From contig NC_088708.1 in the NCBI RefSeq assembly GCF_963576615.1, positions 57,895,196-57,959,195 of the forward strand: a stretch of DNA of 64,000 nt, given 5' to 3'. A program made the position numbers and the translations under genes. Positions 793-50,777 of this stretch are shown in pieces. The notes beneath the pieces were generated by a model, which saw nothing but the letters and a program-made list of their open reading frames with translations, was not told the DNA's origin and ran no database searches. The stretch is from Watersipora subatra. Lineage: Eukaryota > Bryozoa > Gymnolaemata > Cheilostomatida > Watersiporidae. The first letter of the stretch is position 1. Each line of letters opens with the position of its first letter.

Positions 793-1259
793 GATTAACT
801 CGCACAAAAAAAGAGGCGTGGCCTAAACGCTCCTTGTTGGCACCGGAAACACTAGTGTTGTTATTACTCTAGGGGAAGATAACTCTATGGGGTCACTATC
901 AGCAAAGCATAACCAGAATATGTGTAGGGAAAACCCGTTACAGTTTATGAGGGAACCCAATGTGCTTATTCCAAGCGCGATTACATTAGAGTAAGGGACA
1001 AGCTAGCAATAGCATCATTTGTGTTCTCCTAGTAATTCTGCTCCGATATATACAGTAGTAGTTGGATAAGCAAAGAAGGTATTTGCTTTTACATGTTTAC
1101 ATGTTTAGCATCAAGGACTTTGTTGGGCACTGTTTTGTTCCTTCATTGCTATACTCTAAAAATACTCAATTTTTGACAGCCAAATTATCCATCTGTACAT
1201 CCAGCACACTTTATCAGCAGAACAAACCATCAACTCATAAACATTGGTAGATATTACCT

Positions 1260-1358
1260 GTTGTATTTGTAATGTTGTATTTGTAATGTCGTATTTGTAA
1301 TGTCGTATTTTTAATGTCGTATTTGTAATGTCGTATTTGTAATGTCGTATTTGTAATG
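1260..1358. repeat. 14-bp minisatellite, about 7 units (copy A)
   Basis: Same unit and same flanks (ATATCTAGCTCTGCAGC on the right) as the 82-unit array in copy B. Confidence 0.95.
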
Positions 1359-1639
1359 TATATCTAGCTCTGCAGCATAGCTGAGTATAGTGGTCATTCA
1401 CAATTTCAGACCAGAAAGTAGAGCTTGTGTCTGGTTCATTACCATAATACATCTGACCCAGGCTGTTGGTCAAGGTTGTGTTCTGTGTGCATGAGTAAAA
1501 GATGTAGTTGCTGAGAGTTGTAGCTCTGTATGATTACCTAGAGATAGTAAACCAGCACAACAATCTTCACAATACATTGATTATAATGGTTTGGCATCTA
1601 CCTTTTAATAGGTAGTTTAGTATGGAAAAGTCTAACCCC

Positions 1640-1990
1640 TTTGCATGACACTAATCCTATAGCATGACACTAATCCTATAGCATGGCGCTAATCCTATAG
1701 CATGAATCTAATCCTATAGTGTGACGCTAATCCTATGGCAAGTCACTAATCCTATACCATGAAATTAATTCTTTAGCATGTCACTAATCTTATATCATGT
1801 CACTAATCCTAATCTGCACAACACTAATCTTTTGGCATGACACTAATCTTTTACCATGACATTAGTTCTTTAGCATGAAACTAATCCACTTGCATGACAT
1901 TAATGTTATAGCACGACACTATTCCTATAGCACGTTACTAATCCTATCACGTGACACTAATCCTTTAGCATGACACTAATCTAAATTGTG
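1640..1990. repeat. Diverged about 19-bp tandem array (copy A)
   Basis: Unit close to TAGCATGACACTAATCCTA, heavily mutated, about 18 units. Confidence 0.9.
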
Positions 1991-2078
1991 CAGTTAGTAC
2001 ATCTATATATGTAAAAAATTGTTTCCTCACCCCGGATACCCCCGTATGGGTGGTAAATTCTGCTCCAACTCGGGTCTC

Positions 2079-3358
2079 CTACCAGAGACCTGGGAGTTTG
2101 AGCACTCGCCTCAAGATCTTAGCTGTTCCCAATAACGCACTTTTCTGCAACTCACCTGAGTTGATTGTTGTTGGTATTTGGGCAAGCCACATTTTATGCA
2201 CTGGTGTTATTGCGCCCAGTGCTCCAATGACTACTGGGATTACAGTTGTTCTTACATTCCAGCATTTTTCAATTTCTTCTCCAAGAGGGAGATATTTCTC
2301 TACCTTTTCTTTTTCTTTGCTGGCTATATTGTAGTCATTGGGTACTGCTATATCTATTATAGTAGCCCTCTTGTTCTCCTTGTCTACCACCACTATATCT
2401 GGTTGGTTTGCTAGGACATGCTTGTCAGTTTGGATGTAGAAGTCCCAGAGGATCTTAGCGCGGTCATTTTCATTCACCTTACCAGGAGCTTCCCACCAGT
2501 GTTGTGGTTTATTAAGGCCATACTCATCACATAGACTTCTATACACAATACCTGCGACATGATTATGCCGCTCAGTGTATGCGTTGCCTGCTAGCTGCCT
2601 GCATCCACTGATGATGTGTTGGATGGTCTCAGGTGCATCTTTGCACAGTCTGCATCTAGGATCGTCTCTAGTGTGATAGATTTTCGTTTGGAGTTGCCTT
2701 GTTGGGAGCACTTGCTCCTGGGCTGCCATGATTAGCGACTCTGTATTGGCCGTTAGGTTTCCTTTGTTCAGCCACATATATGTCTGGTGAAGATCGCCAA
2801 CCTTAGATATTTGTTGGTGGTAAGCACCATGAAGAGGTTTCGTGTGCCAGTCAATTTCCTCATCATCAGGGCGAAGGTCCGTTGTAAGAGCAGCTGATTG
2901 AAATTCAGCTAGCAACTTATCTGAGATGGCCATGGAGGCTGCATATGCTTTGATGCTTTGCTCCTCCTCTTTCACTGTCTGCTGTACACGTTTGAGTCCC
3001 CTACTGCCATCTTTCCTATCAAGATACAATCTAGTAGTATCAGATTTTGGGTGGAGTGCTCCATGCATGGTCAGCAGTTTACGAGTTGCTATATCTGTTT
3101 CTTTGATGGCTTCCTCAGTCCACTTTATTATGCCTGCTGGATATCTTATTACTGGCAGTGCGTAGGTATTTATTGCCATGATTTGGTTCTTGGCATTGAG
3201 CTGGCTCTGTAAGACCTGCCGAAGGCGTTTCTTGTATTCGGTAATGGCTTTGTGACGTACCTCGGCTTCGTGGTTGATGTTGCTTTGCATAATCCCCAAG
3301 TACTTGTACCCTTCTTCTATATCTTTGATGGTACCATTTGGCATTCTTAGGCCAAATA
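2079..3358 (-). pseudogene. 5'-truncated R2-like non-LTR retrotransposon ORF (end of RT, zinc knuckle, restriction-like endonuclease)
   Basis: An uninterrupted frame of about 425 codons ending in TAG at 2081-2079. In order: RT thumb motif EGYKYLGI, a helical region, a CCHC knuckle (CRLC, then QHIISGC) and a PD-(D/E)XK-like endonuclease segment (PDIVVVD, then TIIDIAVP). This order is that of R2-clade elements with a restriction-like endonuclease. The polymerase core and N-terminus are missing; the frame runs upstream into a TA tract at about 3358-3585, so the copy is dead. The 3' UTR continues to about 2004 (minus strand) and ends in an AT-rich tail. The lack of stops suggests recent arrival. 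Confidence 0.85.
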
Positions 3359-3493
3359 TATAGAATATATATGTAGAATATATATGTATATATTTTACAT
3401 ATATATACATATATATATTTATTTATATATATTTATTATTTATTACTTATTATTATTATTACTTATTTATATATATACATATATCTTAGAATA

Positions 3494-3585
<92 letters not shown>
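3354..3585. repeat. (TA)n-rich microsatellite
   Basis: Imperfect then pure TA dinucleotides abutting the truncated 5' end of the R2-like fragment. A second short TA tract is at 3708-3739. Open frames here are artefacts. Confidence 0.95.
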
Positions 3586-3586
<1 letters not shown>

Positions 3587-3656
3587 CCTGGTTGTTTCAT
3601 GGCAGGAAGTCAACTCTCATTGGTAATGGGATTTGTGTCCCTTGCCTAAGCTCTGA

Positions 3657-3702
3657 GCTGCACTGATGAGGCTTCAATAGCCGAAACAGTACTGTCTGTA
3701 GC
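3657..3702 (+). ncRNA. Type I hammerhead ribozyme (retrozyme / Penelope-like type)
   Basis: All catalytic core elements are present in order. Stem I GCTGCA (3657-3662) pairs with TGTAGC (3697-3702) with one G-U pair. CTGATGA lies at 3663-3669. Stem II is GGCT/AGCC (3670-3673, 3679-3682) with loop TCAAT. GAAA lies at 3683-3686. Stem III is ACAG/CTGT (3686-3689, 3692-3695) with a 2-nt loop, and the cleavage-site C is 3696, giving GUC as the triplet. A very short, self-complementary stem III is typical of hammerheads in metazoan retrozymes and Penelope-like elements, which may act as dimers. It lies on the strand opposite to the neighbouring retrotransposon ORF, flanked by TA tracts. Confidence 0.88.
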
Positions 3703-3706
3703 ATGA

Positions 3707-3739
<33 letters not shown>

Positions 3740-3740
<1 letters not shown>

Positions 3741-3935
3741 AAATGTTTGTCAATCTATACTTCGGTATTTCCGTCTGTCCCGCTATAGCGATAAAGTTTC
3801 AAGCATGAGATATCCTCTGCAAACTGGATTTGAACTAACAACCTCTAGTTCTGCTAACATTTATTTATCCAAGACACTAGTGGCCACTAGTAGCACTGTC
3901 CAACTTGCTATACCATGGAATAACTTTGGCACATG
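3740..3935 (-). mobile_element. tRNA-derived SINE, copy 1
   Basis: On the minus strand an A-box-like AGTGGCCACTAGTG is followed about 50 bases later by a B-box-like AGTTCAAATCC, then a body with CTTTATCGCTATAGCGGGAC. Two other copies in the window share the same order. Probable Pol III SINE; the family name is unknown to me. Confidence 0.65.
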
Positions 3936-5189
3936 CTTAAAATACATGCCAATCTTTCATGGCTTCACGTTAAACACAACAGCCAATGCTATGCATAAAG
4001 CCATACCAGAAGAAAGATTCGTGAAGCCATACCAGAAGAAAAATGCATGCCCATAAGTGAAGAAAAACTCATATGGCCAACAAGACTATTGCAATCAGTA
4101 TAAATCTGTAGTAGGCACTGCAGCTGGCACGATATGAATTACACAGAAATAAACACAGTACACAGAATTAAACAGAATAGACAAAACGCTTCATGTGAAA
4201 GTTAGAATGGTAAATGTTGTATAATATGTTGATTGAAACTAAATTTTTTGTGCAAAAATCTTTTTATTACCAATGTCAAACATTCAGCTAATCTATATAG
4301 ATATTTCTCAAAGTATGTTTTATGTCTGTATGTCATATGTCTGTCTGCATTCCGGCTCTAGCTATTATTAGAATAGCCTAGCTGGGCAACAATGCTGACG
4401 CAATGTCATTGCCTACCGGCATTTGAAGCTTACTAACTAGGTTAGTGGAATTTTCCATTAGCAATGTGCCAGGCCACTTGGCAATGGCCTGCCACTTGCT
4501 GGAGAGTTGCCTGCCAGCAAATGGTAAGCAAATCTCATCACCTCTCATTGTTTATAAGCTGATTTTTAATACACGGGCAACGCACAGCTAGTATTTTTAT
4601 AGTTATAGGTTTAAAAAGTGTAGAGTAAGTCTGTATATTTGAGACGATTTGAAAAGAAGATTTCACAAAGCTATGTAAATATTTAAATTAACGTTCTATC
4701 AAAATATGGAGTTAACTATACATGCAAAAATAAAATAACCTTTAATAAAAATTTGATCATTTGCAGTTTCATGTTTTTATCACGAACTTGTTTGATTACA
4801 CTCGAACTTTTATATTTTACATTTTGAAAGTTTTGCAATTGTTTGAAGTGTTATGAATTCTCATTTTCCAGTGCTATTTGCCAGAGTTTGATTTTGCAAG
4901 AACATTTACTTTTAAACAAAGTACAGCATTCAATTATATTAATGGTAGTAAATGTAATTAAAAAAGTTTCAGATCTATTAAGATGCTGCCAATGCATTTT
5001 ACTAAAAAGAAAGTTTAACCACTGAACTATGATGTTTTGTACTTCACATGATAACCACGTGGTATCTACACCGTAGCTATACGGTAACCATAGTAACTAC
5101 ACGATAGACACATGGTAATCACACAGCTTCAACAGACATGTCTGCCAGTAACTTCAGCAACCCCTTATAATAAGCATTTCTTTCTGGAG

Positions 5190-5815
5190 ATGATATTGAT
5201 GATATTAATGACATTGATCCTATTGATGACATTGATGATATTGATGACATTGATGATATTAATGACATCGATCCTATTGATGACATTGATGATATTGATG
5301 ACATTGATGATATTGATGACATTGATCTTATTGATGACATTGATGATATTGATGACATTGATGATATTAATGACATTGATCCTATTGATGACATTGATGA
5401 TATTGATGACATTGATGATACCAATGACATTGATCCTATTGATGACATTGATGATGTTGATGATATTGATGATATTGATGACATTGATGACATTGATGAT
5501 ATTGATGAGATTGATCCTATTGATAACATTGATGGTATTGACTATATTGATGATATTGAAGATATTGATGACATTGATGGTATTGATGACATTGATCCTA
5601 TTGATGACATTGATGATATCAATGATATTGATGATATTTATGATATTGATGATACTGATGGTATTAATGACATTGATCCTATTGAGGATATTCATGATAT
5701 TGATGATATTCATCATATTGATGACATTGATGATATTGATGATGTTGATGATGTTACGATATTGATGATTTTAATGACATTAATGATATTCATGATATTG
5801 ATGCCAAATAAAATT
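5190..5815. repeat. 9-bp (GATGAYATT) array with a 54-bp higher-order period
   Basis: The GATCCTATT variant recurs at 5216, 5270, 5378 and 5432 (with GATCTTATT at 5324), giving a 54-bp period. Open frames on both strands are by-products of the 9-bp unit; not coding. Confidence 0.93.
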
Positions 5816-7452: not shown

Positions 7453-9261
7453 CTGCAAGAATCAGCATACTGTGACTCGAAGATTGATGTTTAAAATTAA
7501 CTAATAAGATATAGTAAGTTACTAGTCGAATGCCGGGCGCTGCATGAGTATATAAACAATTTATAGATTGTGGCAGGTAAATTTGTAGTTGACAATGGCT
7601 AATTTGGGTAAGTTAGTATATGTATTGCTAAACTTATTAATAAGAGCCATGAGAGCAAGCTTTAGCGATATTGCGCGTAATAAAGAGTCGATATGCATCA
7701 CAGGTGTCCTTTAGCAGGATATTGCTGAGGCCGGGCCGTAGTCTACACACACAAAAAACAACAAAGGTCCACGTAGTTATGAGCAAAAACAAAAGTATCC
7801 ATCCAAATATCTCACCAATCCGATAAGCAGCACACACAAAAACTAAACCAATCGACAGAGCCACCTATCATGTCAAAATATTCCAAGTTTCATGTCATGT
7901 CCTGCACAACTCACCTTATGGTTTCTCAAAACATGTCCCAGAGTGCCTATTAATTTGAGACTGTCCGATTGCTTTTTTAGAAATGGTCGCTGCTAGCCTA
8001 ACCTAACGTCCTGATTCTACATCTCACTAACTATCGGAGCATTGCTAAAAGAGGAAATCAAAAAGTTCGAGAGCACTAAGCATTGCCCCGATAGTTACTG
8101 AGATGTTGAATTAGGACGTTAGGCTAGGCTAGCGGCGACTTTTTCTAAAACAGCAATCGGACAGTCTCAAATTAATAGGGACCTTGAGACAAGTTTTGAG
8201 AAACCATAAGGTGAGTTGTGCAAGACATGACTTGAAACTTGGAATATTTTGACATGATGAGTGGCTCTGTCGATTGGTTTAGTTTTTGTGTGTGCTGCTC
8301 ATGAGATTGGTGAGATATATTTGGGTGGATACTTTTGTTTTTGCTCATAACTACGTGGACCTTTGTTGTTTTTTTGGTGTGTGTAGACTGCGGCCCGGCC
8401 TCGGCAATATCCCGCTAAAGGACACCTGAGATATGCATATTTTAACCTAGATAATTATTATCTGCCCAATGAATCTATTGCATCCCGTGTCGCTCGATAT
8501 GTTAGCTTGCCGCCTTGTCAACGAGATGTACCGAGATCAAATCTTCTGCGACACGGATTTTTCCTTGCTAGATTTTAATGGCTATAACTAGAAATAGGGT
8601 GTACAAAAAATAAACACTGAAATTTATACAGATAGATTGTTGAAGCTTGAGAGGTTTGAGATTTCCAAATACGGATATATTTGCAACAAGCATGTATGAA
8701 GCCAACACATGACCTCGAAAATTTACAAAAATACATACCAAGGCTTGTTAGTTTGGCAAATAAGGAGTTGGCAGCAACATTGCCAAGGTAGGACTGCCAC
8801 AATGCTGCTGCACTTCCACCTATTACTCCGAGAGGTCCAAAACCTATGACTCCTTCAGCGTGTGAAAAAAAGGAGAAATATAAATAACTCAAACTGACCA
8901 ATAAAGGTGATGGTAGAATGACTAGGATGAACAGCAATAGTATTTCAAATCTTTGTCTTTTGTATGTAATTTACTAACAAGACCTATTGTAAAAATCAAA
9001 CCAACTTTGTTCTAATAAATGAATATATTAGTTGTTGATTGGTTACTGATTCCAGCACCAGAAGACCTCTTATTAAAAGTGGTTATTCATACCCAACACA
9101 ATTGGTGCAGCAGCATAAGTAACTCCTAAGGTTGCAGCAAATACTCCTCCTTTGACTAGAAGTTCAGTTTGAAGAGATGATTCGCAGCGCCTCTCACCAT
9201 TCACATTGGGGATCAATAAGAGAATCACCAGACTGCAAGCTATATACTGGCTCCTCAACAT
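7340..9261 (-). CDS. IFI6/IFI27 (ISG12)-like small membrane protein, three exons (whole gene span)
   Basis: Exons 9261-9093, 8852-8739 and 7452-7340 join in phases 1 and 1 to 396 nt, 131 residues plus TAA. Seen: a hydrophobic N-terminus (6-20), then a Gly/Ala-rich hydrophobic block with GGVFAATLGVTYAAAPIVLG, GFGPLGVIGGSAAALWQS and NVAANSLFAKLTSLGATG, the signature of the Ifi-6-16 family (human IFI27, IFI6). Known for the family: interferon- or stress-induced membrane proteins of mitochondria or ER that influence apoptosis and antiviral responses; invertebrate members exist. Length is typical. The gene sits between two direct copies of a repeat segment and its second intron holds a foldback element. 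Start ATG has G at -3. Confidence 0.88.
7699..8429. mobile_element. 731-bp foldback (long-TIR) element in intron 2 of the IFI27-like gene
   Basis: Two arms of about 345 bp (7699 to about 8047 and about 8088 to 8429) are reverse complements with small mismatches; the unique loop is about 40 bp. Ends read CAGGTGTCCTTTAGC and its complement. A 9-bp direct repeat GATATGCAT lies at 7690-7698 and 8430-8438 and fits a target-site duplication. Nine-bp duplications with long TIRs are known from Mutator-like elements; that assignment is inference. No transposase is present. Confidence 0.8.
8739..8852 (-). CDS. IFI27-like gene, exon 2
   Basis: Acceptor ACGCTGAAG, donor GTATGT; phase 1-1. Residues 57-95, the most conserved part of the family (GVIGGSAAALWQS, GNVAANSLFAKL). 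Confidence 0.9.
9093..9261 (-). CDS. IFI27-like gene, exon 1
   Basis: ATG at 9261; residues 1-57. Signal-anchor-like leader, then LLVKGGVFAATLGV and APIVLG. Donor GTATGA, phase 1. Confidence 0.88.
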
Positions 9262-9813
9262 GGCTTACTTTTCGACTGTCAAAATAATTTCATAAAAGAT
9301 TATATATTAGTATTTAATCAGAAAATTTTTCATAAACTAAACATTGTTTCTACAGAACTGTATTAGCATGGCACCGTTCAGGCAAATATTCCTCAATGCA
9401 CCGCTGTCTGATGCAACTCATGGTACGATATCGTTAAGTCGTACACTATTGGTACCTCAGCACAAACAGTTGGTAAAGTTGAACAAATAGGCAGTAGCTC
9501 ACCTTCCTTACGCTATGCAGAGCTCTTTTCAAACACAACTGCCTTAATGTGAGCAAGAGACTCAAATGAGATATGTTTGCCGACCTACCGGCCCATTCAA
9601 AAGGGGGACTCCCCTTTGTGTAAACTCTGCCACCAGATTTCCCCTATTCTTATTGACAACACATGCCTGGGCAGCCAGGCACAGCTGAAGTTACCATCTG
9701 CAAGCAATACCCTGGATGTTTGCAGGGATTCCAATTGGTATTTTCGTCTGAACAAAACTATGTTATCACTCCTATGTCAGAGAGTACATGATTGTAGCTT
9801 AAACGCTGGTTAG
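9262..9813. promoter_or_regulatory. Presumed promoter region of the IFI27-like gene
   Basis: Inferred only from position. A TATA-like TAATATATA lies about 40-50 bases upstream of the ATG on the minus strand (about 9300-9310). No interferon-response element was convincingly seen. Confidence 0.25.
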
Positions 9814-10175
9814 GGCCGCTATCAGCAAAGCATCACCAGAATATGTGTAGGGGAAACCCGTGACAGCTTATGAGGGGAAACCCAACGTGCTTATTCCAAG
9901 CGGGAATACAATAGAGTAAGGGACAAGCTGGCATCAGCATCATTTGTGTTCTCTTAGTAATCCCGCTCCGATATATACAGTAGTAGTTGGATAAGCAAAG
10001 AAGGTATTTGTTTCCACAAGTTTACATGTTTAGCATCAAGGACATTGTTGTGCAGTGTCCTTCATCGCTATACTTTAAAAATACTCAATTTCTGACAGCC
10101 ATATTATCTATCTTTACATCCAGCACACTTTATCAGCAGAACTAACCATCAACTCATAAACATCGGTAGCTATTA

Positions 10176-11328
10176 AATGTCGTATTTGTAATGTCGTATT
10201 TGCAATGTCGTATTTGCAATGTCGTATTTGCAATGTCGTATTTGCAATGTCGTATTTGCAATGTCGTATTTGCAATGTCGTATTTGCAATGTCGTATTTG
10301 CAATGTCGTATTTGCAATGTCGTATTTGCAATGTCGTATTTGCAATGTCGTATTTGCAATGTCGTATTTGCAATGTCGTATTTGCAATGTCGTATTTGCA
10401 ATGTCGTATTTGCAATGTCGTATTTGCAATGTCGTATTTGCAATGTCGTATTTGTAATGTCGTATTTGCATTGTCGTATTTGCAATGTCGTATTTGCAAT
10501 GTCGTATTTGCAATGTCGTATTTGCAATGTCGTATTTGTAATGTCGTATTTGTAATGTCGTATTTGTAATGTCGTATTTGTAATGTCGTATTTGCAATGT
10601 CGTATTTGCAATGTCGTATTTGTAATGTCGTATTTGCAACGTCGTATTTGCAACATCGTATTTGCAACGTCGTATTTGCAACGTCGTATTTGCAACGTCG
10701 TATTTGCAACGTCGTATTTGCCACGTCGTATTTGCAATGTCGTATTTGCAATGTCGTATTTGTAATGTCGTATTTGCAATGTCGTATTTGCAATGTCGTA
10801 TTTGCAATGTCGAATTTGCAATGACGTATTTGCAATGTCGTATTTGCATTGTCGTATTTGTAATGTCGTATTTGCAATGTCGTATTTGCAATGTCGTATT
10901 TGCAATGTCGTATTTGCAATGTCGTATTTGCAATGTCGTATTTGTAATGTCGTATTTGCAATGTCGTATTTGTAATGTCGTATTTGCAATGTCGTATTTG
11001 TAATGTCGTATTTGTAATGTCGTATTTGCAATGTCGTATTTGCAATGTCGTATTTGCAATGTCGTATTTGTAATGTCGTATTTGCAATGTCGTATTTGTA
11101 ATGTCGTATTTGCAATGTCGTATTTGCAATGTCGTATTTGCAATGTCGTATTTGCAATGTCGTATTTGTAATGTCGTATTTGCAATGTCGTATTTGTAAT
11201 GTCGTATTTGCAATGTCGTATTTGTAATGTCGTATTTGTAATGTCGTATTTGTAATGTCGTATTTGTAATGTCGTATTTGCAATGTCGTATTTGTAATGT
11301 CGTATTTGTAATGTCGTATTTGTAATGT
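10176..11328. repeat. 14-bp minisatellite, about 82 units
   Basis: Unit AATGTCGTATTTGC with C/T variation at the last position and a central block (about 10635-10735) where ATGTCG becomes ACGTCG. Because 14 is not a multiple of 3 and the unit lacks stops, all frames stay open on both strands and give spurious 14-residue repeat proteins; not coding. Confidence 0.97.
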
Positions 11329-11611
11329 ATATCTAGCTCTGCAGCATAGCTGAGTATAGTGGTCATTTACAATTTCAGACCAGAAAGTAGAGCTTGTGTT
11401 TGGTTCATTACCATAATACTATCTGGCTCAGGCTGTTGGTCAATGTTGTGTTTTGTGTGCATGAGTGAAAGATGTAGTTGCTGAGAGTTGTAGCTCTGTA
11501 TGGTTACCCAGAGATAGTGAACCAGCACAACAATCTTCACAATACATTGATTATAATGGTTTGGCATCCACCTTTTATAAGTAGTTTAGTATGGAAAAGT
11601 CCAACCCCTTT

Positions 11612-12036
11612 GCATGACACTGATACTATAGCATGGCACTAATCCCTTACCTTGACACTAATCCTTTATCATGACACTTTTCCTTGAGCATAGCACTAAT
11701 CCTATAGCATGACGCTAATCCTATAGTGTGACGCTAATTCTATAGCATGACTCTAATCCTATAGTGTGATGCTAAGCCTATGGCATGTCACTAATCTTAT
11801 ATTATGACTCTAATCCTATATCATGGCATTAATTCTTTAGCATGTCATGAATTTTACAGCATGCCACTAATCCTGTAGCACAGCACTAATTCTTTGACAT
11901 GAACACTAATCCTTTCCCATGACATTAGTTCTTTAGCATGACACTAATCCATTTGCATGACACTAATGTTATAGCACGACACTAGTCCTATAGCATGATG
12001 CTAATCTTTTAGCATGACACTAATCCTAATTGTGCA
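11612..12036. repeat. Diverged about 19-bp tandem array (copy B)
   Basis: Same unit as the array at 1640-1990, with about 22 units. Confidence 0.9.
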
Positions 12037-12049
12037 GTTACTACATGTA

Positions 12050-12215
12050 AATCTCAATGTTTGTCCATCTGTAGTTCTTTACTTCCGTCTGTCTAGCTAT
12101 AACGATAAAGTTTTAAGCATGAGACAGATGTTCATGCAATACACTACGCTGTCCAATTGGCCATACTATGGAATAAATTGGGCACATACTTATTGCACAT
12201 CCCAATCTTTCATGA
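12050..12215 (-). mobile_element. tRNA-derived SINE, copy 2 (internally deleted)
   Basis: Matches copy 1 at both ends (GTTTGTCCATCTGTAG body, CCATACTATGGAATAA), but the B-box region is lost. Orthologous to copy 1 within the duplication. Confidence 0.6.
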
Positions 12216-12340
12216 CTTCACCTGTAGCTAGCTTATGTGTGTAGCCATACCAGAAGAAAAATGCATGCCCTTATAGAAAAAATGCAACTTACTTGCATGT
12301 AACTTGCATGTTACTTGCATGAAACTTACTTGCATGGTTT

Positions 12341-13244
12341 ACTTGCAACAAAATTCAAATAACAGTTACATGTATTTGATATCAAAAGATTCACCATGTC
12401 TTGCTCTGCTGTGTTGTAAGTGCAAAATATGTGGAAATGTGATTACAAGCTCTGAAAAGCTCGAAAATGAACAGTTAATAGCAGCTATCATGAAAATTCC
12501 GTAGATTGGAATCTCTCTCCAAAACGACTCAAATGGGACATAGTCAAACACGATGCGCTTCTGTTTACACTTTCATGCAACCTCATTCATCGAAATATTT
12601 TCACAAACATACTTCACGCATTCAATAAAACCATGTTTATTGTCCTTGCGCATTTATTTCATCATCATTGTAATGCTGTCACTTTGAACGCTGATATCTC
12701 CAAACCTAGCCTAAAAATTTAATTTTTTAACCTTAGCTCGAAGGAGTGCATATCATGTTCTGTTAAACGTGAGGAGCCTGTTGGTCTTCTGTGATAGTCG
12801 GAAAATGCTGCAGAAATTGTTCGCGGCATTTGGCAGGAAATATGGGTCACATGATCAGATTACGACTAGATGATTAGACCAAGGTGAAACGAAACTGTGA
12901 AGTAGCGAGCATCTATATTTGGTACGGGCTTTCCGGTAGAACCCGAAGTGTTTGTCATAAACTAGTGCTACGAGACGTTTTGTATTGAGCCTTTTATTGG
13001 CCTTTTAATTCACGTGAGAACATCATGTGTCAAAACAATAATCACATCGAGTTGAATACGTCTTCGAAATAAAGGGATTCCAATCTACGGCGTTTTCGTG
13101 ATAGCTGCGATTAACTGTTCGTTTTTTTTAGCTTTTAAGAGCTTGCAATCACATTTCCACATATTTGGCACCTACAACACAACAGAGTAAGACATGGTGA
13201 ATCTTTTGATACCAAATAACTGTAATGTGAATTTTGTTGCAAGT
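12341..13244. mobile_element. Long-TIR DNA element, about 904 bp, in copy B only
   Basis: Left arm 12341-12512 and right arm 13075-13244 are inverted copies (about 170 bp each; outer ends ACTTGCAAC and GTTGCAAGT), with about 560 bp of non-coding sequence between. Copy A lacks it around 4055, so it inserted after the duplication. No clear target duplication; a local ACTTGCATG repeat sits at the left edge. Confidence 0.7.
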
Positions 13245-13642
13245 CAACCTTTAAACTCCCATGGCCAGCAAGGCTATTGCAATCAATATACATGCACTTG
13301 GATCTGCAGTAGGCTCTGCAGCTGGTACAGTATGAATTACACAGAAATAAACACAGTATGCCGAAATAAACAGAACACCTTCATTTGAAAGTTAGAATGG
13401 TAAATGTTGATTAAAACTAAATTTTATCAACCTTTTTATTACCTGGGCACCCCTGGGTATTCAGCTAGTATTTTTATATTTATATGTTAAAAAAGTGTGG
13501 AGTAAGTTTCTATACTTGAGAACACGTTAAAAGGAGATTTCACAAAGCACTGTGAATATTTAAATTAATTCTCTATCAGAATATGGAGTTAACTATACCG
13601 CAAAAATAAAATATCTTGCAATGAAAATTTGATCATTTTCAA

Positions 13643-15689
13643 TTTTGACCAATTGATTAATTTATGCTAATGAATTTCAAAAGCAAGATTGACTTTGTTT
13701 ATCGTAGGCCTATGTAATAATTCATAAAAGCTGACATTCATATTTTTATAGATTGATTGGTCATTCACATATTCGTGGATCACCTAATTAACTTTTTCAT
13801 TTTATAAATTTTAGTTATAGCACTATTGGTTGTTTAGCTGTTTTTTTCAAGTTGCAAGAATAGCACTAACGTTTTACCAAGCTTATAAGTTTTTCAATCA
13901 GAAAACAACCCTTCCATTTCACTCAACATAATGTGAGTGGAGTTGTCCCACTATTACTAGAGTGCAGTAAAACTAACAGATTATTTCTAGAGAATCAATC
14001 AATCAGTACTTTGCTTTACACAGGTTATAAATGCACATTAATTATTTTTTTTGTTGCTCATCAATATGGGATATAATAGGATAAGTTTATATGATGTACT
14101 CTTAGGCCAATCCTATGGCCACAGGCTAGCAATGGACGAATGTAACCTCACTAATTACACTAAAATAATTAGAGTGCTTAATAGCCGTATGCTGTGATGA
14201 GAGCCAGCTGACTCCTAGCCCCCACCAGCTTAAATAGGTGGTGCGACCGAACGACGAACCAGCCAGTAGACTGAACGATCAATGATTGACACGTCTTCCA
14301 GCTTTCAGATTCAAGAGGGCAGAGCTTAGCAAGCCTGTTGCTATGAAAGAACAAGGCTCGCCAGCAAGTAATAGAAGCGTTTGCACCTTCTTATACACTA
14401 CCTGTATTGCAGTGAGCAATTATCTACAAATATATTATTGGAAGCTTTCACTACGAGTTATTCTGGAACATTGGTGTGTCTAGTTGAAGAGTCGTGTTGT
14501 CTTCCTTTACAATACAGTGTTAAACAGAGAACCTATATTCTAGTCTAAACGCCTCTGCTTGATTATCAGTAGCTAATTTATATATGCAATAAGCAACTAG
14601 TCTCTTGTTATAATTGTTTTGGTATAATATACCAAAAATCTACATATTATGTAGATTGTAGATACGCGACTACACTTACTAGCCCACAAAAAAGAACAGA
14701 TTTTTAAAATGTCAAGGCTAGTTTTCAGCCAACAAGATATATTATTATTATTGATATTTTGATTAAATCGTATAGCATAATAAAATTGCAATCAATCATA
14801 ACAATATTTGAAAAAACAAAACGATAGACTGGATTATTATGATACAAAATTCTTTACACAATTACGCTAAAAAGGCACTTGAAAATGACTAATATAAATT
14901 GTATTGCTGATATGTCTACATTTGGTTAAGCTAAACTCTATTCTCTAAACAAAATGCACTAAAAATTTTACAAATAATTTCCGACTAAGAGGATGTAAAT
15001 AAAAGTAAATAGAACATTGCGAGAGACAGTCGAGCCGCTAACGACAGTCTCTGCCAAGGACATTTATTGTTTAGAGCTGTGACAAGAGAAATTGTACCGT
15101 TATGTTTCCTAAAACATAAAACTTGGCCAAATCAGTATAGCAGCCTGACCTCATTGTCACAACTCTCTACAATATACAACATCGGTCTTCACTGGACAGC
15201 CAATCAGAAGCACCCATAAGATAGCATAGACGTATAGAAAATATTAAAAGAGCACCTTTTGGAGTGACAGTATAGTTTATCTGTACAGTTAAAAACTTTA
15301 ATTAAAAAAATGCTGGTTTGGTGAAGATTTGAGCAGATGGGTGATCTCCTTGCCAGACTTTGGAGTTATGTTACTATTGTGTGAGAACCTGTCAGACGAG
15401 GTCTCCTCTCGTAATATCTGCAAATACATCTCATTGTTTTATTGAAAATGTTTCTTCAAATAATATAAAGAGTGAGTATTTCTGATAAAAGTGAATCATT
15501 CTTAAAAATTAACCTTCTGTTACAAATTTAAACTCTATGAGAAGCTTTAAACGGACTCAATAATTTAGCATAATATATCTAACGCAAACATCTATGATTG
15601 GGAGCATGTATTACACAAAAGGTTTACAGTGGAGTTCAAGCGTATCTTTGTAGGAAGTCAGCAACACTTTCCAAAATAACAATAGTTGA
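13643..15689. other. Intergenic, nothing coding recognised
   Basis: Between copy B and the 3' end of the nephrin-like gene. Two adjacent short dyads occur at 14619-14661 (TTGGTATAATATACCAA and ATCTACATATTATGTAGAT). Confidence 0.6.
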
Positions 15690-25176: not shown

Positions 25177-28100
25177 TTAAGAGTACTTTTATAACTACTA
25201 CCACTGTTATCACTACTATCACTTTTATTACTACTATCACTGTTATCACTACTATCACTGTTATTACTACTATCACTTTTATAACTACTACCACTGTTAT
25301 CACTACTATCACTGTTATTACTACTATCACTGTTATTACTACTATCACTGTTATTACCATTATCACTTTTATAACTACTATCACTGTTATCACTACTATC
25401 ACTGCTATCACTACTATCACTGTTATCACTGCTATCACTGTTATTACTACTATCACTGTACTGAAACTACTAGTACTTACTGGTTCCTGAGAGAATATAG
25501 TCATGGGTTTCTGACCCTCTGTCATTAGTAGCCAAACAAGTGTATGTCCCATAATCCTCTTCACCTACACTGACGACTGTGAGAACGAAACTAAAGTGAA
25601 TTTGACCTTCTGTTTCTGTGCTCTGTTGGTATTTCTCCCCAGCCAGTTCTGTACCTCCTCTGCTCCACACAACTGATGGTTGAGGGTAGGCATCCAAAGT
25701 GCACTTGATTACCCCATTTTCCCGAGTTTGGGCTGCTGACTTCGAAACACTCGGGCTTTTATCGATAACTGGCTGAACTGTGAAGCAATCACACCAGTGT
25801 AAGACGAATATTCATGCAATCTATAGCGTATTATCTGTGAAGAAGAGGTAAAATGGTAACAACATTTCGATAATCCTTATAATTTATTTCTTAACTTCTA
25901 AGCAAATGCCAAAGAGTGTCATTTGTTGTTAGCTCATGACGAATAATGATTAATCTTTAATAAGCTGTACATGAAACTTTTAGATTTAATTATAAAAAAG
26001 TTTAGACAACTAACATCAATAGGTCTTCTGATTGAAAGCCACAAATTATTCAGAGGAAAACAACCCTCAAAATTCAAATTATCCATGCTGTCACATTTCT
26101 TACATGGAACTGGGGTGACTGTGTATTCCTTAGTAACGATGCCAAATGCATTCTCAGCCTCACAGGTGAAGGTACCTACATCCTCTCTCACCACGCCAGA
26201 TATGGTTAATGTTATTGTTCGCTCCGTCCCTTCGCCATCAATGCTAGGAGTAGCCCTGGCCATGTCATAGTCTAGACGGGTCCATTTCGCTTGGCTCAAC
26301 GTTACTGGAGGATTGGAGTCAATTGTGCAATGAAGCTTCAGTACCCCATCGTTGTATTCTTGAGTAGGAGAGTTGGGTATTCCAGCACCATCTATCAAAT
26401 TATTAAATGATTTAACTAAAATTTAATAAAATCATTTTGAAAGATTAGTTGGTTAAAAATTGGTTGAAGATTTAAACATGATTTTCTATAATCTTGTTAC
26501 TTTTGGCTGAGTGACTTTTCAAATCTAATAAGTAATTGTTTAAAGAGACGAACAATTTTTTAATCGTGTAAAGGTTTCATGGCGCAAAGAAAGACATGTA
26601 GCCTGACATCCATTTTTAATAAGTCAAAGGTTACGATTAAAGTTTAATACCTACCTGCAAAGTTACGACAACAACAGCATAGTCTGCAAACTTCACAAAA
26701 TCATTTTTAAGATGCACGACGCTATTTGTAAATCATCGTAAGTTTTTATTCGAATAATTTTTATTGGTTCGAGATGCTTGTAGATAATCGGTGGTGAGGA
26801 TCAATAACAAACACAAACTATTATCATTATTACACTATATCAACTTGAAGGTGAAAACATCACCCTATTTTTATATCCACAAATTTTGAGAGTCATTGTT
26901 TAAGATAGCCTAATATTAGTTAATAAAGTGAATTTTTCTGCAGAGATGATTAGGTGGACATTACTAAAAAACCTAGCTCTATTATGAACATTGTCTACAA
27001 GTGTGAGCTATATCATATCACTTTATAAAGCGCTTTAGCAATGTCTACCCAATCAGTTTACCACTTTTAGCAAATTGAACCTGTTATGAGACGATACTGT
27101 GTCGAAGGTTTGAGACGGTTTGATTCGTAGACACGAAGGAATGAGTGAGCACTTAAGGGAATGAGTCTGTTGAGCTAAACTAAACTAATTAATTAATGCA
27201 TAACAGAGAATTGCATGGTCTCCGTATTAAATTACATGGCTGCAAAATCTCATCCAACTCTTACTGATTTAAAGCATAGAAAGAATGCCGTGTGGGAAAT
27301 TTTAAAATAAATTCTGCCAATAATAGTGATTCATCACTTTTAGCTCAGGCTTGGTATTGCGGCACTTGCTCCAAGTTCTAGAGCATATAAAATCAAAAGT
27401 GTTAGTTTAGTACAGTTGTATTCCGTTAATGCTTTTTAAAACCAAAATTTATTAGAACTGTGTAAAATTTGGTAAGTGAATTGATACAAAGAACGATTTT
27501 CCAATAAAGCTTTGCGACATCCCTGACACCCAGATCATTACGGAAAAATGGCTAGGTATTCCTTTATTGCATATCAACTGAGAAGTGATCATGGAAATTT
27601 GCTGCGCTGTGTGCAGCAAATGTTCATGCTCCATTTAAGAACCCTCACACATTGCTCATCAATGTACAGTGGAGATTTATCCATAACAAACTTGATCAAA
27701 TTAACATTTTTGTAAGTAAATACAAAAGCTGATCAGTGATTGGCTGCTGGAAAGCACCGCTGGCAGACTGCGACTGCCAGCAGAAGTATAAGCCTTTCGC
27801 TTACATTGAACATTGATCTCAAAATCATGAGAAGTTGTGCCCTCTGTGTTAGTAGCCTTGACTCTATAGGCTCCAGATCTCGCCCTGGCAACGTTGTGGA
27901 GGTTCAAAACACCACCCTCCACCTTCATCTCGCTCAACGCTCCATCTCTCTTAGCTTCCAGAGTAAGCTCTGTCTCTGTACCATCAGCAGCTACCTGGGA
28001 AGGCAAGATGGTATGTGTGACCCCTTTCCAACTGCCACTGACTGATGAGAACGACACTTCCTGAATGCTGCCAACAAGTAACCTTTTAAAATTCTATAGT

Positions 28101-34100: not shown

Positions 34101-37100
34101 ATCAGTCAGTTCGTCAATAGCCCTTTGTACAAATTAAAGAAGGACACAGAGAAGTAAGAAATAAAAACGGAACAAAAGTAAAACTAGACAGGTGTCTACA
34201 GGTGTCTACAGGTGTCTGACATGTGAGTAAATAGTGTTTTGAAGATTAGCCATTTAATGGCCATTGGCCCAGCATGATTCCTAAGCGTTGCTTAGCTTAG
34301 AAAAACAAATGGTAAAACTTTTTGGCTTCCCTAAACTAACACATTTGGAGTACTAACTAGAATGGATGTTACACTTATTACAGTTCAATTTGATACAGCG
34401 TAGAAACATTAATAAACGAAGTCAAATCTGTTCGATTAAACTGCAGTTTTTTGTCTTGAACATCATTTAGCTTTAGCCAATGTCAGAAGCACAACTAATT
34501 ACAGAGCCAATATTATTATTAAGGTTTTCACTCAAAACTGAGATTATAAGGTATAACCATGAGTTACCAATGTACTGTAGGTTTATACAACTGCACTTGA
34601 GACGCTTGCTATTGCAGAAAAAGTTGTTTTGAGGCTTTTTGGTATTCAAAATCATGATACCGACAGAGGACATCATTATTTTACTACTTAGTACTATTCT
34701 ACTGAAACTGGCTGACATACTTCTTTTCGTTGCTTATAGCATAATCTTTGCTCATAAACATAACATTGCTCATAACATTGCTTATAAGCTCTACACGCGT
34801 GCATTTCTCAACCAGGGAAGAGGATAACTTGAGAACATTGCCTGATGTCTTGAAGCACACGATTATCTTTTAATATATTACCTTCAATACTCAAACACGC
34901 AGCAATAATACTATTATAGCAGTTCCATTATGGTGATGTTATACTGTACCATAGCACATGTATACCATACACATATGGTATTATATCACAGTATTAATTG
35001 TGATATGATATCATAGCAGTGTTAAAAGACTGTTATGGTATAAATAACCTGTAGCATTAATATTAATATTATAACAATTAGTATCATATAATATTACCAA
35101 TTATTAATACATATTTCACAGCATTGTTCAAAGGATAAAGAATGGCCACACAGCAATTGAACTGCTGTTTCCCATAATTTTTGTTGAAAAATAGGTCATC
35201 ACAACTTAAGCTAAAAATCATCGCTCAGCTTGATCCAAAGTGAAAAGCAATCAAACTTCAAGCTAAATAGTCACTTTATTTGTTCTTTTAAATTTTCCGT
35301 TTTATTTATTAAATTGCACAAATAATAGTCGTGTGAAAGTAAAAAAAGACCCACAGGAGCTATGCTATTTTCATGTGATAACAATGCTTTTCATCCAACT
35401 AGATTTGACAGTTTATTACTAGGGCAAACCATTTTATTCCAACTTTGCGCTCTTGCTACCTACTTGTGAAAAATACTAATTGATTTGGATTTGTGTTACT
35501 TTTACTTCTTTTTGCTCCTAGTAAAATAAAGATTACTCAAAAGTCCTTTGGATACCAGAAGTACTGCCAACTGCTCACAATAAACCACTGTAACACGCCA
35601 ACTCCTTACAATATGCTACTGTAACATCCCAACTATGTACTATTGTAACATCCCAATTATTTACAATTTACTATTGTAACACTCAATTACTTACATTATA
35701 TTACTGTAACACCTTAACTCTTTACAATATACTACAGTAATATCTAACTACTAACAATATATTATTGTGACACCACAACTACTGTACTTACAGTATACTG
35801 CTGTAACACTCCAGCTACTTGCAATACATGTGCTACTGCAACACTCCGACTACTTACAGTATACTGCTGTAACATTCCAGCTACTTGCAATACATGTGCT
35901 ACTGTAACACCCCGACTACTTACAGTATACTGCTGTAACACTCCAACTACATGCAATACATGTGCTACTGTACCACACCGACTACTTACAGTATACTGCT
36001 GTAACACTCCAACTACATGCAATACATGTGCTACTGTAACACCCCGACTACTTACAGTATACTGCTGTAACACTCCAACTACTTGCAATACATGTGCTAC
36101 TGTACCACACCGACTACTTACAGTATACTGCTGTAACACTCCAACTACATGCAATACATGTGCTACTGTAACACCCCAACTACTTACAGTATACTGCTGT
36201 AACAGCTGATGTTTCCTTTGGTGTAGCTGAAGCAGAACTTTCCGCTGAGCACTTGTATGTTGCACCATTGTCCTCAGGCTTAGCTATGAACTCTAGCTCA
36301 AGGATCTTAGTCTTGTTACGGGTGACAGCCTCCCCCACACGATCAATGACCGTGTCTCCTAAAAAGAACCACGACAAGTAAAGACGAGTGGCTGAAAGTG
36401 ATATGTTGATACCATATTACTACTTCACTAACTTGATATAAAGCAGTAACTGTAATTTTATTTAGCTAGCGCTAGCTAGAGTATTAGATAATCAGTTATT
36501 AGATTATCTATCTAACTAGATGAATGCACCGCGTTGCATAAGTAATAAAAAAAATCTCTCGTGCAATCATGATCTTAAAGCACGCTAACTGAAGCGTGAT
36601 GCGGGCAGCGTGCTATTTTAACCAATCGGCATAAAAAGATTGACAGTTGTGATATGTATGACCACAATTATTCCATTGCATAGCATTCTAGCCAATTGGC
36701 CTAGTGGATAGACTTGCCTGTCTGCAGATCTGGAGGTTCTGAATTTAAAACGTGTGTGAAGCTGATTTTTGGTTCTTATAACTTTATCATTATAACTGGA
36801 AATACGAACAACAGATATACACTGTGATTTATATTTATAGATGTACTTGTGATTAGGAATTACAATAGGGTTATTCAGTAGCATAGACCTCATTTTGTAA
36901 AAACAATTAATTACAATTTCAGAGATGTATTCATAGAGTTACTCATATTCACCGGTTATCATGGTGCAATAGGCTTCACTTCTACATAGCCCAAAGCTAA
37001 AGGGCCCTATTTAATGCTTCATTGACTACATAGTCTAAACGCAATTAGCTTAATCAGCCAATCAGATGTGGCGATGGAAACAACATTTAAGCCAACACCA

Positions 37101-40100: not shown

Positions 40101-43100
40101 AGAAAAAATTTAAAAACCTTCTCAAGCTCACCATATGGCAAATTTATAGCTCATTAATTGATATAGGTGACTGAGTGGCAGGACAGCTAATGATTCAAAA
40201 TTTAAAAACAAGAAATTTTTTAATAAAATAATAATAAAAAATAAGCAATTAAAACATACTCATGTTTCAATTGTTTATAATAGAATAGTGTAGAAGAATA
40301 ACAGTAATCACCTTACATATAAAATTTATATCATCTTTCTTGGTCTGCAAGGATTGATAGTAAAATAATCGAACGTTGTTTAAAGTCGAATTTATTTTTA
40401 TTACATTATCATAAAGCAAAGTATTCTCCGCTATAAAACTCTAAAAATGGACAATCAAACCACAATGCAAGAATTTTCATAAGCTTGGGCAAAACTCGGG
40501 GAGATTGTGGTCAAAACTTGACATGTTATCAAAATAATATTTTAGTTATAGAGCAGACTTGACCTTCTGGTGACATTTACAGGACAAATTTGTTGACTAA
40601 TTTTAAATTGAGCTAAGTTACGAATACAGTCTATTTTGAGCAGTCAAGTTTTTTCTAAAATGTTTGTATGCATAAATACTTTGCATGATATTGAATTCGA
40701 TGTACATATTTCAAAATTATAAATTTTTAAAACTTTAATATGATATGATACTGGCATGATAACTATATTGTTTGTAATCATAAACTGTAGCAGAAAAATA
40801 AAACCAGTGTTTTTTACAAGTATTTAAAAATTTTAATATTTAATATTTTACGTATCGAATACATAATAAAAATTTATATGCCAACTTATAACCAATGCTA
40901 TTGGCTATGAGTAAGCTATTTACACATATAATCTTTACGATTATTCTTCTTATATGCGCGTTTCATTGTCACATCAAGTAAACTGTAACACTGATGACCT
41001 ATAGTCTGGAAAGAGACCACATGTATTTCAATGATGATAAACCCTGTCATTCTTTGACTGTCTTCATCCTTGAAGCGTTTCCACTTGTAAAATGCTCGCT
41101 GTTTCATTTCAACTAGCCAAACTCTGACATTATCTTCAACAGGTTTTCCAGCTGTGGTTTTTTAGAGTCTAGCTGCTCTAGATTTTAGAACAATGCTCGA
41201 AAATCTAGAGCATGGCCAATGTAATGAGAGGAACCTACCTTCGTCACCTGATCATCAGCAGGCAGCGATGAGCCCAGATGCAACCAAGTAATGGATGATT
41301 TGGGGTTGCTGTCAGATGTGGTGCAAGAGAGTACAGTAGCCTCCCCAATCTTCACCTGCTCATTTCCGGTAATCGTTACCTCTGCTGGAGGAACTGCAAA
41401 CAGGAATATGTCAAATAATGTCATTTTTGAGATTAAATTCATGGAACTTACAATATTTGCTACATAAAACACCAGAATGATTTGTTGTGCGTAAGAAAAG
41501 TGACGGCAAATATCAACATCCCAGGCCGGTTTTGCTTACAGCCAGGCCTTCAAAGTCTCATAAAACCAATACCTAGCTCATCTTATAGGTCTCTAAAGAC
41601 TGGCCTCACTTATTCCTCATTTTTAGTGTCATGTGAGAGATCTAGCATTTACTATTACTATGTTTCCATGACACGGTTTACCCATAAATTTGCCTCACCC
41701 GCGAGTCATATAGTGATATGAGTAATATAGTGTACATACACTATATTATAGTGTAGGCCTATATACACTATAATATGGTGTATAAACACTATATTATAGT
41801 GTATATACACTATAATATAGTGTATATATACCATATTACAGTGTATATATACTATAATATAGTGTTTATACACTATATTATAGTGTATAAACACTATAAT
41901 ATGGTGTATAAACACTATATTATAGTGTATATACACTATAATATAGTGTATATATACCATATTACAGTGTATATATACTATAATATAGTGTTTATACACT
42001 ATATTATAGTGTATAAACACTATAATATGGTGTATAAACACTATATTATAGTGTATATACACTATAATATAGTGTATATATACCATATTACAGTGTATAT
42101 ATACTATAATATAGTGTTTATGCACTATAATATAGTGTATAAACACTATAATATAGTGTATATACAATATATTATAGTGTAAACTGGGTCATATACACTA
42201 TAATATAGTGTATATGACCCAGCAATAGATGGAGTTGATGAGCAAATTCCTGGCATGTGTTTCACTCATGTATCCATGTCAGGTGATTCTGCTGTGCTGA
42301 AATAAAGCTATAGCGTACGAACAAAAATAAACAAATTTTTATGGTTGCTCTTGCCAGAAGAGATTGTGCCAAGAATATTAGGTTATCTCTATGGAAGTAA
42401 CAGAGTTAAGTAAAATGTAACTGAAAAACCATAGTTTATAGAGCTTACTGTTGCATGCAAGCTTTCACTCTTTAAGCAATTTTTTCTCTGCTAAACTCTA
42501 TGCATCTCTCTATTAACGCTATAAAGCAATGCATAGTTAATAAATATTTATATACAGAGTTATCTTCCCACATAAAATATCCATAAAGCTCACAATGAAG
42601 GTGAAGACGAAACATTATACCACGGTACTATAAAGAATGTTACGCAGATTATACATACATTGCACGCTGAACGTTACGTCTTCACTCCTTGGCTGTTCTA
42701 ATGCAGGGTTGTTGGCATCACATCTGTACACGGCATTATTGTCAGATGGCTGTATATACACAAGGTGTTCGCTCACAACTGTCTTCGATCCTTCATTTGT
42801 GTCATACTGTACAGATAGCTGTTCGTCATTGCGGTACCAAGTGAGGGACGGTAAAGGGTTACCTCCGATCACCGTGCACTTGAGTGTGATGTCAAGGCCA
42901 GCTTGGATAACCTGGCCATCTCGGTAACCACTGATAATTGGTTCGCTGGGAGGAACTAAAATGACCATATAGGGTTTAATCTAAAAGGCAACATTTCTAC
43001 ATAAGATATTGAAACAATCGATGGGTCTGATCAAACAAAATAAAGATACATATTATTATATATATTAAGGGCATTGCTGATTGGCTGATTTATTAGCTAA

Positions 43101-49100: not shown

Positions 49101-50777
49101 ATTAGTTAGAACAGACCACTGAGAGTATTAGTTAGTACAAACCAATGAGAGTATTAGTTAGAACAGACCAATGAGAGTATTAGTTAGAACAGACCAATGA
49201 GAGTATTAGTTAGTACAGACCAATGAGAGTATTAGTTAGAACAGACCAATGAGAGTATTAGTTAGTACAGACCAATGAGAGTATTAGTTAGTACAGACCA
49301 ATGAGAGTATTAGTTAGTACAGACCAATGAGAGTATTAGTTAGTACAGACCAATGAGAGTATTAGTTAGAACAAACAAGAGTATCAACTGCGTAAATTAG
49401 ATGAAAGTAGCATTAAAATAGGAGGAATTGCAGCAACTGTGCAACTAGAAGGAGTGCAAGCTCTACTGTCAAAGCATAGTTGGCATCACATACTGAAGTC
49501 TACTCTGTTCATTTACTGCTAGTAAATGTTTATACAGTATTGTAGAAACGTTAGAGTCTGACAGCGTTGCGTAATATAATCATATCCTCCTTGTTGATTT
49601 GCAAAAGACATTTTAACTAGACTGAGATGTCACTTGATGCCAAAAATGCCGCATTCGTATCAGATGTCTGTCGTAGAGACTATCTCAGTATTTCTATGAG
49701 GTGGCCGTAATTGGATATTGACCATTGCTTCCATTACTGTTGGAATGTTCTTAAAACAAATTTCTTGCCTTGTTGAAGTGTGCTTATTTGTATCGCTTGA
49801 GGACAGCCAGTATTTCACACTGATGCAGGCTGAGGGTAGACACTAATATGTTTTGTACATATTTCTGACAGCCTACCAACCAGGTCAAGTATGTTAGTGT
49901 ATGTACAGAGCACATTTACACTGCTCAAGCGCCATTGGCTTATTTGTTAACAATGAGCACACTTTTGGCATTTTGGAAAGTTACCAGAGATGGTATGCAT
50001 GCCATTGCGGTCACTCCTATGCCTATAAAGCGTTACCATACAATAAGAGATTTACCATTTTTAGTTTTTCATCAAACAAGGCGTAAGATGGTTGGTAATA
50101 AAATTAGCCAATAAGAATTAGGTGATGAAAAAGCCATCCGAACAAGCTTCAACACACTAGGCCTAGTACCAATGTGACTTAAAACAGGAAATGAGCAAAC
50201 TAATGCCTGCAATGGCATAGCCCAGCCTTTGACCGTGATTATGGCAATCACAGCTAAAAAGACACGGAGGTCTGGTCTGCATGTTTGCAATTGGCTGAAA
50301 CTCAGTGAGACGCAGCACCCTCTTTCTTTCGATCATTTCATATAAACTGTTAATATTTGATCCGTGCCGGCTTATTCACAATCTAATAATGACAGCAAAA
50401 CTTTCTGTCTCTCAAAGCATGCTTTAAAGAACCTGTGACAATGGCGCAGAGACTATGCACTTTGCAAAAACAAACAATTATACTCATTTTTTAATCCGGA
50501 GATTTACTTTTTTGCGGTATAATTTGTAATAATTTGGCATGCCTACCCGTAAATAATAGTTCAGGTTGTTATGTACCAAATGCCTATTTGAAACACTATG
50601 AAGGCAAAGCAAAATAAATATTTAGTAGTATTTGAGTGTAAGGACAGAAAGGACAGACTGAAATTGTATATTCGGTTTTACCCAAATTCTAAATATGGAA
50701 AATTGTTACTGTACTGAGTTTGGTAAGTTCTTATGTCTCACCTTCCTTAAGATTCTACACTGACCTACTGTTCTCTA

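Follow-up and report, generated by a model that had tools for sequence, protein, structure and literature searches.

A truncated retrozyme copy in Watersipora subatra and its family of 259-bp repeats, most insertions of which end in TA repeats just past the hammerhead cleavage site

The window, i.e. the whole stretch of DNA analyzed here, covers 64,000 nucleotides of the genome of Watersipora subatra. It contains a hammerhead ribozyme within a short insertion, next to the remains of a LINE (Table 1). The earlier note on this sequence had placed the ribozyme inside a retroelement insertion, with retrozymes as one parallel. This is borne out, since the ribozyme sits in a truncated copy of a 259-bp repeat, and the feature is almost certainly a copy of an animal retrozyme. 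The copy retains 112 of the 259 unit positions upstream of the cut, followed by 15 downstream, and is 99.1% identical to the unit across 112 bp (BLAST). Three other places in the genome match 128 of the 129 bases of 3584-3712 at 100%.

Table 1. Position of the retrozyme copy, its ribozyme, and the neighboring features in the window
Feature	Position	Strand	Remarks
Type I hammerhead ribozyme	3657..3702	+	core boxes and stems located in sequence; predicted cleavage 3696/3697
Stem I	CTGCA 3658-3662 with TGTAG 3697-3701		one G-U pair; plus G3657-C3702
Hammerhead core box CTGATGA	3663-3669		
Stem II	GGC 3670-3672 with GCC 3680-3682		loop TTCAATA
Hammerhead core box GAAA	3683-3686		
Stem III	A3686-C3687-A3688 with T3693-G3694-T3695		
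C17 of hammerhead	3696		predicted cleavage between 3696 and 3697
5'-truncated retrozyme copy, 127 bp	3585..3711	+	unit positions 148-259, then 1-15 past the cleavage site
TATAT, putative reverse transcription start	3708..3712	+	merged here with flanking (TA)n
(AT)n-rich tract, 5' side of retrozyme	3356..3585	.	
(TA)n tract, 3' side of retrozyme	3708..3738	.	
5'-truncated R2-type LINE	2013..3358	-	separate insertion, candidate helper family; limits approximate, by eye
Matching place in local duplicate	12042..12052	.	without window 2009-3727

The region belongs to a diverged local duplication, in which 890-4769 resembles 9813-13645. The second duplicate lacks about 2009-3727, that is the LINE fragment, the AT tract, the retrozyme, and part of the TA tract, hence the LINE fragment and the retrozyme are insertions. 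The two insertion events are not told apart by comparing the duplicates. Both duplicates also carry two satellites, one of 14 bp (AATGTCGTATTTGC type) and, after it, one of 19 bp (GCATGACACTAATCCTATA); the 14-bp one is strongly expanded in 9813-13645. A tRNA-like SINE to the right of the (TA)n tract was considered and rejected, because much of that stretch is common to the duplicate copy.

The reverse-transcriptase frame of the LINE (2079-3410, minus strand) is in the opposite direction to the retrozyme and runs on into the AT tract. When compared with an R2 protein in PDB, the LINE protein gave an E-value of 9e-4 over the whole sequence, with only 0.4 bits for the endonuclease stretch alone, and its zf-RVT match reached 23.3 bits, below the cut-off of 27.5. 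The element may be affiliated with R4/Dong. Of 9,748 candidate places for the LINE in the genome, 95 were scored; all have an identity of 94% or more, and open frames of 1,123 amino acids are present in 12. The R2-type family is abundant and young. Its 3' tail has 2,147 exact occurrences in the genome, and TATATATA follows within 14 nt in 914 of 1,061 cases (forward strand only, as the reverse count repeats places). Since the tails end at (TA)n, the LINE and the retrozyme share their target.

All core boxes and stems of a complete type I hammerhead fit at 3657-3702, in agreement with the earlier note. The pattern CTGATGAG-N4-30-CGAAAC has one match in the window and none in 100 dinucleotide-shuffled windows (expected number 0.00). 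The cleavage site previously proposed, between 3696 and 3697, agrees with the predicted position of C17. Stem III had been drawn with 4 bp and a 2-nt loop, which the energy model refuses, so that 3 bp with a GUAC tetraloop is a better rendering. Its self-complementarity holds: ACAGUACUGU of this stem is identical to its own reverse complement, and the idea of a ribozyme acting as a dimer therefore stands. On the other hand, the Rfam covariance models that had been proposed as a check, with a sub-threshold score named as a refutation, gave 0 matches at the gathering score over the whole window. In permissive mode, on 181 bases, RF02275 (Hammerhead_HH9) scored 23.5 bits (E-value of 6e-4) for a gathering score of 52. 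The minimum-free-energy fold of 3650-3708 (-17.3 kcal/mol) is not a hammerhead, which drawn without the outer part of stem I has -8.7 kcal/mol, and the hammerhead stretch folds no better than shuffled sequences (z -0.83). Folding energies leave out the non-canonical hammerhead core. A score under the Rfam gathering score and an energy fold that does not favor the hammerhead are what a chance or long-dead match might give. However, the 34-base core has 1,091 exact occurrences in the 784-Mb genome (0 for the reversed-pattern control), one per 259-bp unit, and the pattern is unexpected by chance, which makes this explanation extremely improbable. Because of these exact copies, which carry more weight, the sub-threshold Rfam score is, on sequence grounds, not decisive against the hammerhead.

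Self-cleavage of a read-through transcript from the window copy is plausible. Yet this would be a dead-end copy, which might cut a transcript once: release of a 259-nt monomer takes two cleavage sites at a distance of 259 nt, so no 259-nt circle would be obtainable from it. The suggestion that the locus itself could yield the element's circular RNA is thus not upheld, and with one ribozyme in 127 bp the window copy is ruled out as a lone source of circles. Pairs of cleavage sites 259 nt apart are present in tandem arrays elsewhere in the genome.

The stretch 3584-3712 has 1,327 candidate places in the genome, and the 40 scored ones are 98-100% identical. Tandem units are spaced by 259 bp (260 in a few arrays), in arrays of up to about 7 units. 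Among the matches listed, the 12 arrays with at least 3 copies each have, by eye, a single spacing, which is 260 in one of them and 259 in the others. The unit, which we number from the first base past the cleavage site, is non-coding, has a GC content of 47.1%, and showed no LTR, primer-binding site, or polypurine tract by eye. Folded as a circle, it has a predicted energy of -97.2 kcal/mol, compared with a mean of -72.6 (sd 4.7, z -5.3) and a minimum of -88.7 kcal/mol for 200 dinucleotide shuffles. The pair probabilities in this predicted circle are 0.05-0.11 for stem I, 0.59-0.73 for stem II, and at most 0.006 for stem III, i.e. the hammerhead is mostly unformed in the model fold. Blocking of the hammerhead in the circle is attributed to plant and some mussel retrozymes, and not to most animal ones, in the accessible sections of PMC7229834. 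A pattern excluding the main ribozyme form matched 18 places (reversed control 7), of which 13 are clear variants of the family, one is doubtful (L037), and 4 are apparently unrelated. Hence, no second large family of the variant form was seen among these 18 places genome-wide.

These characteristics place the element among the animal non-LTR retrozymes. As far as the available text of PMC7229834 describes them in coral, mussel, and axolotl, they are non-coding, with a type I hammerhead and a short helix III, and occur as tandem repeats of 150-450 bp at high copy number with a GC content under 50%. The hammerhead boxes, repeat length, copy number, and GC content found here all fall within this description. 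The class is thus published, and the Watersipora subatra family looks like a new member of it, an abundant element that is non-autonomous. Circular RNA was shown for the published animal retrozymes in the same text, whereas here it is predicted from the sequence. The insertions also differ: most of those studied here lie in TA repeats and share one 3' end past the cut, and the part of PMC7229834 available to us describes no such target. Plant LTR retrozymes, in the excerpts of PMC7229834 and PMC7761336, are likewise non-autonomous, with a hammerhead-bounded unit and circular RNA (here putative), but have a type III hammerhead, LTRs, a tRNA primer site, and circles of 600-800 nt.

To characterize the ends of the arrays, we used 78 loci, of which 30 were selected for their resemblance to the window copy, 18 for the variant ribozyme pattern, and 30 for the exact core. 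They merged into 63 stretches with 67 arrays, 66 of which are complete. Among the latter, 63 extend to the cleavage site and stop just beyond it. One of these 63 (L037) is a doubtful, degraded match of 46 bp at 83%, and without it 62 of the 66 arrays stop 4-16 nt past the cleavage site, inside TGTAGCATGAGTATAT. The stops adjoin the internal TATAT, mostly joined to (TA)n. All 15 bases of TGTAGCATGAGTATA are exact in 41 of the 62 ends, 7 ends keep 11-14 of them, and the others are shorter or substituted. Shorter ends include GCATG joined to TATA (L056, L064), GCAT joined to ATAT (L032-L034), and TGTA joined to TATA (L044, L045); ends with fewer kept bases are what slipped pairing would give. The arrays ending elsewhere are in L007 and in the near-duplicate pair L044/L045. 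TATATATA is found within 45 nt of the end in 56 of 63 arrays and is absent in 7, while TATATA occurs within 40 nt on the 5' side in 59 of 66. In the whole genome, TGTAGCATGAGTATAT followed by ATATAT has 679 exact matches and TGTAGCATGAGTATAT followed by the unit's own GCTCCC has 511, with 0 for each reversed control.

The 5' ends are scattered across unit positions 1-229 (63 arrays, Kolmogorov-Smirnov against uniform p 0.06). After collapsing three suspected duplicates, 33 of 60 arrays have at most one unit, 19 have one to two, 6 have two to three, and 2 have six to seven, i.e. 27 are longer than one unit. A fixed 3' end with variable 5' truncation, the pattern looked for in target-primed reverse transcription, is thus found in 62 of 66 arrays, and any target-site duplication is hidden by the TA repeats on both sides. 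The junction pattern is well supported, and the mechanism drawn from it is likely. In the open-licence literature, which is no proof of absence, we found no description of TA-repeat targeting or of a fixed reverse transcription start for retrozymes.

Several observations concern the flanks of these arrays. TA-centered palindromes as marks of the 5' flanks were rejected, since an inverted repeat occurs in 9 of 63 left flanks and 5 of 63 right flanks. The longest palindromes were found at L030 (102-bp arms), L048 (49), L019 (47), and L013 (41). The first of these surrounds a TA tract in the left flank of L030/L027 (C1:61810180), upstream of a 6.7-unit array. By eye, the 5' junction of L013 (left of C8:35560588) holds a short stretch of retrozyme in inverted orientation, such as a template switch would leave. 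Among the matches listed, the retrozyme 3' junction recurs in ten close copies at G000:C2:36461438-36461772, with distances of 23-97 bp; the junction itself may have expanded secondarily there. Finally, CAGTGAAACTCGGATAACTCAAACTT follows TATATATA at about 18913 (minus strand) in the window and also occurs near several retrozyme arrays; this sequence is presumably similar to the terminus of a DNA transposon that targets TA.

A further sample was chosen without the ribozyme, using unit positions 30-150 as a query. The 40 scored matches gave 28 arrays, 3 of which were already in the first sample; from the remaining 25 we examined the first 20, at one place per array and over the 151 bases that follow it. 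The ribozyme region is present in 19 of the 20. Its core is exact in 15 of these 19, two have a C-to-T change that keeps a G-U pair, one has a loop change, and only L085 is clearly broken, at a core base. The standard end point is seen in 11 of the 12 array ends covered, the exception being L095, and 8 arrays continue into a further unit. Departures from the majority letter are found at 6 of 646 bases in the core and at 32 of 1,288 in the rest (p 0.02). Without the common variant columns, the non-core departures drop to 17 of 1,167, so that selection on the core has modest support; compared with the remainder of the unit, the core would be modestly conserved.

RNA circles of animal retrozymes are abundant, and their route back into DNA is an open step in the portion of PMC7229834 consulted, which leaves open whether the primer is the DNA target or a small cellular RNA. 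According to the accessible part of PMC7761336, there is no conserved motif from which the helper might be deduced. For the family described here, we propose a cycle of transposition via circular RNA and (TA)n-primed reverse transcription, to which we give a probability of about two thirds. Tandem arrays would be transcribed, the hammerhead of each unit would cut the transcript into 259-nt monomers, and a host ligase would close these into circles, with CTGTC/TGTAGCATGAG as ligated junction. A TA microsatellite would be nicked by an endonuclease coming with a reverse transcriptase, and its TATA-3' end would pair with the UAUAU at nt 12-16 beyond the ligated cleavage site. The circle would then be copied from UAUAU through the ligated junction, sometimes beyond a full lap, and copying might stop anywhere. 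The outcome would be insertions of about 0.2 to 7 units, with the 3' end fixed in (TA)n and the 5' end scattered; in the window copy, reverse transcription would have stopped after 127 nt. Most insertions would end in a complete hammerhead because the putative start lies just past stem I. A start at TATAT, primed by (TA)n, is very probable. UAUAU (unit positions 12-16) comes after the kept end in the RNA and the target is TATATA, and pairing of the nicked (TA)n with UAUAU followed by extension would be the simplest reading.

The ends carry bases from both sides of the cut, hence a cleaved linear monomer cannot be the template. The copied RNA must have been joined there, either as a ligated circle or as an uncleaved multimer. 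Variants are common to the units of an array: the mean distance between units is 1.5% within arrays (62 pairs) and 5.0% between arrays (3,173 pairs). At 14 common variant columns, picked after the data were seen, units of the same array agree in 782 of 812 comparisons, compared with 69.3% for shuffled labels (0 of 500 shuffles reach the observed value), and in 313 of 338 compared with 71.6% without the two 7-unit arrays. One 6.7-unit array is 100% identical throughout. Across 29 multi-unit arrays, private differences (178, of which 74 come from two diverged arrays) outnumber shared ones (65). Unequal crossing-over can likewise make uniform arrays. Together with the tandem units and the TA on both sides, this uniformity would suit an ordinary satellite spreading by DNA recombination, with TA tracts as recombination sites. 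However, hundreds of scattered places share the 3' end and differ in the 5' end, many with less than one unit, which is the mark of reverse transcription and makes a satellite very unlikely. An uncleaved read-through transcript of an array is a better contender. Its flanking (UA)n tail would pair with the (TA)n target and the 3' end would be inherited from the founder, no circle being needed. This reading explains, from the same data, why the 3' end is fixed, why 5' ends are truncated, and how whole arrays are copied, and hammerhead mutants of the Anolis Penelope-like element insert unaffected in vitro (PMC11167929). Yet this RNA must escape cleavage at every complete hammerhead and ribozyme-dead families should win, whereas cores in the mid-unit sample are mostly exact, with a single one clearly broken. 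Moreover, a long source array, itself uniform, would be required for each of the uniform arrays that differ in variant type. We thus regard a linear template as rather unlikely and a circular one as probable.

The identity of the helper is less clear-cut. A Penelope-like context had been suggested in the earlier note. The neighboring frame is not of that kind: its closest relative with a solved structure is an R2 protein, and it belongs to a separate truncated LINE of opposite direction. The 259-bp unit is short and has no frame joining a reverse transcriptase to a GIY-YIG endonuclease. The genome gave a single GIY-YIG match, with a model whose power for Penelope-like enzymes is unchecked. This match looks SLX1-like, which argues against a Penelope-like helper. 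The 3' end of the LINE shows no similarity to the retrozyme (score 15, reached by 213 of 300 shuffles), hence tail sharing is rejected, and the LINE tail lies within 250 nt of an array in 4 of 63 cases on the right and 9 of 63 on the left. Because the tails share no sequence, the R2-type LINE is only weakly favored over a Penelope-like enzyme, and stands an even chance of being the helper. LINEs with a restriction-like endonuclease, in the excerpt of PMC4640811 available, insert into microsatellites with 5' truncation, as seen here, and the window LINE ends at (TA)n like those that target simple repeats; unlike them, the retrozyme is non-coding and has no tail in common with the window LINE. 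The same circular route served by a Penelope-like enzyme, which the accessible text of PMC7229834 suggests for animal retrozymes, is on the unlikely side, though the missing tail similarity speaks in its favor. It stays a serious rival because in the Anolis element Poseidon, reverse transcription begins at an internal point of the RNA, beyond the hammerhead cut, at AT-rich targets, and with tandem copies, as here (PMC11167929). However, the start used by Poseidon is some 85-90 nt from the cut and has no match to the target, whereas the putative retrozyme start does match its target, and Penelope-like elements encode a reverse transcriptase and GIY-YIG while the 259-bp unit is non-coding (PMC11167929).

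The most specific version of the proposed cycle, in which a circle with its own primer-binding UAUAU uses the TA-targeting LINE for rolling target-primed reverse transcription into the chromosome, is tentative, with somewhat less than even odds. If true, UAUAU and the LINE would fill both missing steps of the animal retrozyme cycle, the primer and the helper. Hundreds of insertions with a common start and a simple target make both steps testable with a single protein, an RNA circle, and duplex DNA of (TA)n.

The rest of the window has other repeats. Pfam scans of 10 other frames found little. Long palindromes of about 0.75-0.83 kb occur at 7691-8440 and 51445-52267 (88% and 80% self-complementary, respectively). 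Several tandem arrays are well preserved, their units measuring 18 to 132 bp; they are found at 41723-42181, 47478-47971, and 48985-49373, as well as at 35568-36204, 25185-25459, and 5189-5803. Two frames on the minus strand, at 42615-42968 and 8575-8937, match an immunoglobulin domain and the interferon-induced 6-16 family, respectively, and are probable host exons.
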